Under the pieces are notes generated by a model. That model had not been told where the DNA came from. It did no database searches and saw only the letters and a program-made list of their open reading frames with translations. From Chitinophaga pinensis (GTDB taxonomy: Bacteria > Bacteroidota > Bacteroidia > NS11-12g > UBA955): DNA of 64,000 nucleotides. A program made the position numbers and the translations under genes. How positions within the stretch are numbered: position 1 is the first letter of the stretch; each line of letters starts with the position of its first letter. This document shows, in pieces, positions 62,064 through 64,000 of this stretch. The DNA lies in assembly GCA_945871905.1 (NCBI GenBank), contig CAMBXL010000003.1:186001-250000 (forward strand), read 5' to 3'.

Positions 62064-62071
62064 TACCTTTG
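62064..62071 (+). promoter_or_regulatory. -7 promoter box (TACCTTTG) of the RNA candidate
   Basis: Fits TAnnTTTG; it begins 6 nt after the MFS stop codon and ends 5 nt before the 5' arm of the RNA's closing stem, so transcription should begin at about 62076-62077. Confidence 0.65.
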
Positions 62072-62076
62072 CACAT

Positions 62077-62267
62077 AGAAAGGTCGGCCCTATTTGAAAA
62101 AATTAACATCATTTCAATAACAGCTGAACCGCTTTATCAAAACCAGGCTTTTTTACCCTAGTGGGATTTTTGGAATCTTGTATTCTGAGGACGTTAGAAG
62201 GTTGCGATTCCTGTGGAGGCTAAATCCTATTTATTTACGGATTTTTATCAAAACCGACCTTTCTTTT
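62077..62267 (+). ncRNA. Structured non-coding RNA candidate (6S-like?), about 190 nt
   Basis: The 246-bp gap between the MFS and response-regulator genes holds no ORF but has a promoter box, and the ends of the predicted transcript pair perfectly over 11 bp: AGAAAGGTCGG (62077-62087) with CCGACCTTTCT (62254-62264), followed by TTTTATTT as a terminator-like tail. Inside, GGAATC...GATTCC and AAATCC...GGATTT can form further helices and CCC-TAGT-GGG a small hairpin. A rod of this length with a closed terminal stem fits 6S RNA, which binds RNA polymerase; a 6S-Flavo-type RNA is known in this phylum. The family assignment is a guess; the structured transcript is well supported. Confidence 0.6.
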
Positions 62268-62303
62268 ATTTGAATTTTGTAGAGGAATAATTCGAGAAAA
62301 TTC

Positions 62304-63077
62304 TTAATCAAAGAACAATTGACTTTGATTTTTCATGTATTTCAGAAGTTCGCCTTTATCCACTCTTGAAATATTCATTTTACTGTCATCGCTAAAAACG
62401 ACAATTCCATCACCAAAGCTTTTTTGTATTTCCACAATTTTAGAAACATTGACAATATTGGATCTGTTTAACCTAAAAAAACAGTTGTTGATTAATTTTT
62501 CCTCAAAGAATTTCAGATTTTTGGAGGCGTGACATTTTTTCTCATCACCTTCGGTATAAAAGATGCAATAACTGCCATCAGATTCTATTCTAAGTATTTT
62601 TTTCACTTCGAGCAACAATGTCTTTTCGTGGGTATGAACTAAAATCTTTTTTTCTATTTGATTGGGATTATGAAATTCGTCAAATTCAGCTTTATCAACT
62701 TGACTTAAAAAAGAGTCTATACAATTTTTAAAATCATCAATGTCTATAGGTTTTAGCAAATAATCAAATACCTTCAACTTAAGGGCAGGCAGTCCATATT
62801 CAGCAAAATTTGACATGATAATAAATTGAGTTTTACGACCTGTATTCAACAATTCAATGAATTCTATTCCGGTCATTTTGGGCATTAGTACATCTATAAA
62901 AACTAAATCAATCGTGTTTTTTTCAACATATTGGTAGGTTTGTAAAGGGCTCGTGTAGCTGCATTCTACATTAAATCTGTTACCGTAATATTTTTCGAGC
63001 AAGTTCTCAATAAACTTAATGCTCTGTTTGTTGTCATCAATAATGACTACTTTTAGCTTGTTTTTTATTATTGTCAT
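62304..63077 (-). CDS. LytTR-family response regulator
   Basis: 257 residues. Receiver domain with the acidic pair IIDD (14-15), the phospho-acceptor Asp62 in FIDVLMPKMTG and the conserved Lys in DYLLKPIDID; then a LytTR DNA-binding domain (about 145-250: KILVHTHEKTLLLEVKKILRIESDGSYCIFYT...FFRLNRSNIVNVSKIVEI). Its start overlaps the kinase gene by 41 bp, so the two are a coupled two-component system. Confidence 0.95.
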   Translation of the reverse strand: MTIIKNKLKVVIIDDNKQSIKFIENLLEKYYGNRFNVECSYTSPLQTYQYVEKNTIDLVFIDVLMPKMTGIEFIELLNTGRKTQFIIMSNFAEYGLPALKLKVFDYLLKPIDIDDFKNCIDSFLSQVDKAEFDEFHNPNQIEKKILVHTHEKTLLLEVKKILRIESDGSYCIFYTEGDEKKCHASKNLKFFEEKLINNCFFRLNRSNIVNVSKIVEIQKSFGDGIVVFSDDSKMNISRVDKGELLKYMKNQSQLFFD

Positions 63078-64000
63078 TTGTAATTAGTGGTAAAGTTAAG
63101 TGGACAATAGTACCTTGCGAATCTGTTCTATTGGCTATTTCAAATTTCAGTGTTTTGTTAAATTTAACTTGTAATTGCTGAATCACAAGTTTTAAATTTT
63201 TGAAGCCATAAGAATCTTTTTTGAGTTCCGATGGTTTATAACCAATTCCATTGTCAATAATCTCTATTAGAAGATTATCGTAGGAGATATTTATATTAAT
63301 CTGTATAAATAAACTGCGGTTTAAATAGTCAGTAAAACCATGAATAAAAGCATTTTCTATTAATGGTTGTAATACATTGGTTGGAATTTGTATGTCTGAT
63401 AGTTTATGAAAAGTGCTAAATTCTTTGTGAACATGAAATTGAACAAACTGGTCTCTATTGATATTTTCTAATGCCACATAATCTCTTATAATACTAATTT
63501 CATTTTCTAAAGGCGTTATACTTTTTTCGGAATTAAAGAGCATATTTCTCATTACCTTACTAAATATTGAAATGAATTTTATAGATTTCTCATAATTACC
63601 ATCCATAATTGAGTTTTGAAGTCCAATGAGTGAATTGCTTAAATAATGGGGATTGATTTGAGTTCTTAATGCTTTCAATTCACTTTCTATAAGTTGCAAA
63701 TCTGATTTAATTTTTTCTTTTTTATTTCTATATATGATTCTACTTGTAATGATAAATGCAGATAGACCTGAAAAGAAATAAATAACAAAAGCAATTTTCG
63801 AAGCATACCATGGATGCAGGACATTTATAGTAATGATTTTATAACTTCTAGTGTCTAATGAACCTGTTTTTCTTAAATATATATTGTATTCCCCTCTTTT
63901 TAGGGAGTACAACTTTAATTTGTGATCTTCCAACGACTCCCAGTTAATGTTTAATTCAGGAATTTTATATTCTATGTTAGAGGATATTCCAAAATTGAAA
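63037..64000 (-). CDS. LytS-type sensor histidine kinase, partial (5' end outside window)
   Basis: The frame is open to the window edge; 321 codons including the stop are seen. The visible order is the end of a Y_Y_Y domain (GISSNIEYKIPELNINWESLE...LKRGEYNIYLRKTG), one membrane helix (ASKIAFVIYFFSGLSAFIITSRIIY), a His_kinase domain with the phospho-acceptor His in TQINPHYLSNSL, and the ATPase domain with ENAFIHGF and DNGIGY. Y_Y_Y domains normally follow a periplasmic beta-propeller, so the missing N-terminus probably carries one. It phosphorylates the LytTR regulator encoded next to it. Confidence 0.93.
   Translation of the reverse strand, partial: FNFGISSNIEYKIPELNINWESLEDHKLKLYSLKRGEYNIYLRKTGSLDTRSYKIITINVLHPWYASKIAFVIYFFSGLSAFIITSRIIYRNKKEKIKSDLQLIESELKALRTQINPHYLSNSLIGLQNSIMDGNYEKSIKFISIFSKVMRNMLFNSEKSITPLENEISIIRDYVALENINRDQFVQFHVHKEFSTFHKLSDIQIPTNVLQPLIENAFIHGFTDYLNRSLFIQININISYDNLLIEIIDNGIGYKPSELKKDSYGFKNLKLVIQQLQVKFNKTLKFEIANRTDSQGTIVHLTLPLITNDNNKKQAKSSHY

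Follow-up and report, generated by a model that had tools for sequence, protein, structure and literature searches.

A probable divergent 6S RNA of the 6S-Flavo lineage in an intergenic gap of a Bacteroidia genome

Locus and boundaries of the predicted RNA

The window analyzed here is a stretch of 64,000 nucleotides, and the RNA under study lies near its end, in the gap between an MFS gene and a convergent response-regulator gene. The putative 6S RNA gene occupies 62078–62267 on the plus strand, starting 20 nt past the MFS gene and stopping 37 nt before the end of the response-regulator gene, with its 5′ end placed from the promoter and its 3′ end from the T run. A covariance model of the family (R1, described below) matches the same interval in its own genome (G000:C3:248078-248267). 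The response regulator forms a pair with a sensor kinase at 62304–63999 on the minus strand. Similar regulator and kinase proteins are found upstream of the RNA at two other loci (L040 and L059) in another orientation, which is probably due to chance. A functional link of the RNA to the MFS and response-regulator genes was rejected because the adjacent genes change between genera, and this variation of neighbors fits a trans-acting RNA.

The octamer TACCTTTG at 62064–62071, read directly from the window, fits TAnnTTTG, the −7 element of a Bacteroidota-type promoter. Of 62 loci that were read, with some genomes counted twice, 55 have an exact TAnnTTTG just 5′ of the RNA, and most of the remaining loci have variants of the box such as TAAYATTG. 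The two ends of the RNA are joined by a closing stem, P1a, in which AGAAAGGTCGG (62077–62087) is the exact reverse complement of CCGACCTTTCT (62254–62264) over 11 bp. Right after the 3′ arm of this stem is the T-rich tail TTTCTTTTATTT; the T-rich stretch at 62260–62271 is presumed to act as an intrinsic terminator using the closing stem. On the strand of the RNA, the open reading frames in the gap reach only 30–31 codons and have TTG starts. The box, the end pairing, the tail and the lack of an open reading frame had all been described in a first-pass annotation of this DNA, and each was recovered.

The minimum-energy fold of −44.9 kcal/mol is closed by the same 11-bp stem. The fold energy is ordinary, with a z value of −1.19 and 21 of 200 shuffled sequences equally stable. 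TAnnTTTG is also frequent in this AT-rich DNA, occurring 127 times in the window against 112 expected, so that neither feature alone exceeds chance. Since energy and box are uninformative by themselves, the case was built on the comparison of relatives.

Conservation and covariation

A plain DNA search found the stretch in 21 of 97 genomes (its own, with one copy, included) and in 9 of 24 genera. A pattern search of named genomes returned 40 stretches, all from metagenome-assembled genomes of Bacteroidota. Copies of the RNA occur in different genera and families, and 34 of them were aligned (A1). RNAalifold predicts 24 pairs in A1, of which 17 show compensatory changes. In this alignment 96.1% of the cells are paired, and on none of five measures does any of 500 shuffles attain the observed value. 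When the alignment is slid by one column, the pairing falls to 44–50%. In the closing stem, both sides change in six of the seven modeled pairs. The comparative folding suggested in the first-pass annotation has thus shown that the paired ends proposed there are kept by compensatory change. In a class-wide alignment to the model, 23 of the 24 pairs changed on both sides, although such an alignment leans to the model. The aligned copies terminate in the 3′ arm of the closing stem and a T tract.

The first-pass annotation had overlooked two elements, a helix just inside the closing stem and a hairpin competing with it (discussed below). The helix, P1b, was found by reading the sequences and pairs 62093–62104 with 62240–62252, with A62247 bulged. 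Here TTTGAAAAAATT pairs with GATTTTT-A-TCAAA, while elsewhere the partners are TTGAAAAATTC/GAATTTTTCAA and GGTAAACTC/GGGTTTACT. The native partners outperform all of 1000 permutations, a test in which relatedness is ignored. In a broad alignment (A3), P1b was found by RNAalifold unprompted, with 95.9% of the cells paired; no other helix is obtained there, since A3 misaligns the outer and apical arms.

With P1b included, the central bubble is reduced to about 17 and 18 nt, which is the usual 6S shape. Its 5′ strand is at 62105–62121 and its 3′ strand at 62222–62239, and helices flank it on both sides, P1b below and the apical arm above. Covariation supports three helices in the apical arm. The lowest joins AGCT (62122–62125) to GGCT (62218–62221), the next joins CCGC (62129–62132) to GTGG (62213–62216), and the third joins ATC..AACC (62136–62144) to GGTT..GAT (62200–62208). 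The apical domain at 62145–62199 holds two small hairpins and is longer and more variable than that of 6S-Flavo. At about 190 nt and with an 11-bp covarying closing stem, the RNA has the size and closure of a 6S RNA.

Homology to 6S-Flavo

Scanned against Rfam, at the gathering threshold as well as at relaxed ones, the window yielded only eukaryotic or chance families, and the RNA gave no match to the models of 6S-Flavo (RF01685) or canonical 6S (RF00013) even at E 10. The covariance-model check put forward in the first-pass annotation therefore came back without a 6S match. The window falls below the RF01685 gathering threshold of 85 bits, which only 2 of 295 genomes of the class reach; this failure limits the use of the Rfam label, not homology. 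It is noted that the Rfam RF01685 model consists of a 108-nt core only, with the closing stem left out, and that most real members score far under its threshold. At the RF01685 loci, a closing stem of 11–16 bp and a T tail flank the Rfam match, outside the model.

Homology was established through relatives. The locus L023, from an order-level relative, shows homology with the RNA of the window (4.8e-19) and is also a full-length RF01685 match at 36.4 bits (E 3e-4). The covariance model R1, built from the 34 copies of A1, matches 29 of the 295 class genomes and RF01685 matches 21; the two sets of matches coincide in three genomes (G233, G266 and G317). Run unfiltered on the 21 RF01685 loci, R1 gave 108 matches up to E 10, of which the best 13 all lie on the RF01685 match. 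One of these 13, L099, scores 75 bits with RF01685 and has an R1 E value of 8e-6. The two RF01685 loci above the cut-off are both matched in place by R1, weakly (E about 0.1, 15–16 bits), and so the link passes through intermediates. Descent within the 6S-Flavo lineage is supported by both the L023 bridge and the position of the 13 best R1 matches.

Three other candidates were set aside. L021, a 49-nt DNA match in G058, was discarded since R1 did not recover it at E 0.001. L091 (32 bits, with poor pairing and no P1b) and L107 (RF01685 34 bits, with no R1 match in place) are probable false matches.

Proposed mechanism of polymerase capture and release

6S RNA is a promoter-mimicking RNA that keeps RNA polymerase in check. 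By analogy to 6S biology, expression, polymerase binding, pRNA synthesis and release may be envisaged for the present RNA as follows. An RNA of about 190 nt would be transcribed from the TAnnTTTG promoter and would fold into a rod consisting of P1a, a small internal loop, P1b, the central bubble and an interrupted apical arm. The bubble would mimic an open promoter and capture RNA polymerase holoenzyme when nutrients are scarce or cells are stationary. As the cells recover, the polymerase would copy the 5′ strand of the bubble, starting approximately opposite C62107, to give a pRNA beginning with GUUAAUUUUUUCAAA, with the 5′ arm of P1b as the presumed template downstream. The synthesis of pRNA would open P1b, and the freed strand could then form a hairpin between 62222–62227 and 62239–62244, leading to release of the RNA.

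Position 62107 lies three bases above P1b; all 34 rows of A1 have C or T there, and 30 of 31 rows of A3 have C. The conservation of this pyrimidine suggests a purine-initiated pRNA with its start opposite C62107.

The 3′-bubble hairpin is formed by AAATCC (62222–62227) and GGATTT (62239–62244), and at least 5 bp of it can be formed in 53 of 65 copies. It beats 1000 of 1000 permutations, and 998 of 1000 when each type is represented by a single copy, relatedness being ignored in both. Owing to register differences in A3, the hairpin is not countable pair by pair, and its support comes from these permutation tests. P1b and the hairpin share part of their 3′ arms. The two are mutually exclusive, which makes a release switch of the E. 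coli type plausible, and the overlap suggests that such a switch may operate here. In the 6S RNA of gamma-proteobacteria, the downstream helix is unwound as the pRNA is made, and a hairpin can then form in the 3′ strand of the bubble, which aids release (PMC8876501).

Distribution, duplication and decay

The RNA is carried by 46 of the 97 genomes, with a single match in 45 of them. In the other family of the order, 32 of 38 genomes have it, against only 14 of 59 in its own family. Within its own genus, five genomes (G003, G005, G013, G014 and G015) have no recognizable copy at 93–98% completeness; other members score above 150 bits. When 32 genomes lacking a match were searched with R1 at relaxed settings, only weak hits (E 0.01–1), most of them short, came up, and no copy emerged in these members of the genus. 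The missing copies within the genus possibly reflect loss of 6S RNA, although one model cannot separate loss from divergence or assembly gaps. A decayed copy in G278 makes loss plausible. In this copy (L083:1501-1672, minus strand; 59 bits), the 3′ half and the center of the apical domain are recognizable while the 5′ bubble strand and the 5′ arm of P1b have been lost, a state resembling that of a pseudogene or a rearranged copy.

Duplications were also observed. One genome has two copies 12.7 kb apart (L042:2870-3056 and L029:7572-7758, contig JAIOYZ010000018.1), with an exact TAnnTTTG upstream of one copy only. In G173, the two copies (C3:61119-61306 and C7:46668-46856) both have the exact box upstream. 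We tentatively consider, with rather less than even confidence, that much of the class Bacteroidia may share one divergent 6S lineage with an E. coli-type switch that has been repeatedly lost, duplicated or degraded, even within a genus, so that 6S control would be dispensable there.

Identity of the RNA

Based on the sequence comparisons, the gap in this uncultured Bacteroidota bacterium very probably harbors the gene for a diverged 6S RNA belonging to the 6S-Flavo lineage. The kind of RNA is thus a known one, but this member is new and has diverged too far for the standard database models. Two observations speak against this reading, the weak R1 scores of the 6S-Flavo members above the cut-off and the large number of genomes in its own family with no recognizable copy. 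The first-pass annotation had named 6S RNA as one option and considered a new RNA equally suitable; the evidence clearly favors 6S, which is upheld by homology to 6S-Flavo through relatives even though the direct Rfam search of the window was negative. RNase P RNA and SRP RNA were rejected as identities, since those of this genome are located elsewhere (G000:C1:110126-110509 and G000:C19:4035-4132, respectively).

A different trans-acting structured RNA, homologous to 6S-Flavo but working otherwise, for example by binding polymerase without making pRNA (in the manner of Ms1, which binds the core enzyme) or by pairing with mRNAs, is improbable. The sequence is indeed far from canonical 6S, it has several conserved unpaired segments that could base-pair with mRNAs, and the 6S function in this lineage would be assigned by analogy. 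However, the whole architecture, with its bubble, P1b and competing 3′ hairpin, agrees with the way in which 6S RNA refolds (PMC8876501), and the position for a purine start is kept. The closeness of the RNA to both adjacent genes could point to a cis-acting leader or terminator element, but the RNA has its own promoter-like box and T tail, and the downstream gene is convergent. With the adjacent genes differing between genera while the RNA stays constant, the cis-acting element is effectively refuted, and we give it hardly any weight. A chance inverted repeat in AT-rich intergenic DNA, which the ordinary fold energy and the frequent box would allow, is just as remote, being already refuted by conservation across families and by the 17 of 24 pairs with compensatory changes.

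The identification of this RNA as a probable 6S RNA bears on annotation. Rfam's two 6S models place 6S RNA in 21 of the 295 sampled Bacteroidia genomes, two of them above the cut-off. The RNA family traced here extends recognizable 6S to further families, adds the closing stem and the downstream helix missing from the Rfam model, and yields a concrete prediction for pRNA and refolding. This would improve the annotation of a large phylum, leaving the concept of 6S RNA unchanged.

Comparison with known systems

The closest known system is 6S-Flavo (RF01685; Weinberg et al. 2010, PMC2864571), which is homologous to the window RNA, with coinciding covariance-model matches. Both share the bubble motif AACA/AACG above P1b, the rod, and the closing stem and T tail that lie outside the Rfam model. 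In contrast to 6S-Flavo, the window RNA lies under the detection of the Rfam model and has a longer apical domain that carries two additional hairpins. The rod, closing stem, bubble and apical arm are also common to canonical 6S RNA (RF00013; E. coli ssrS and B. subtilis 6S-1). However, RF00013 has no sequence or covariance-model match in any of the 295 class genomes, that of the window included, while the E. coli and B. subtilis controls were detected. The overlap between the downstream helix and the 3′-bubble hairpin is a further likeness to gamma-proteobacterial 6S RNA (PMC8876501).

In the same phylum, a 6S transcript with pRNAs has been reported for B. thetaiotaomicron (PMC7366714), and the known RNAs detected in Flavobacterium psychrophilum include 6S RNA (PMC9723704); both are likened to the window RNA by description. 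The Ms1 RNA of Actinobacteria (PMC9130861) also has a 6S-like structure and binds polymerase, in this case the core enzyme, and is likewise compared by description.
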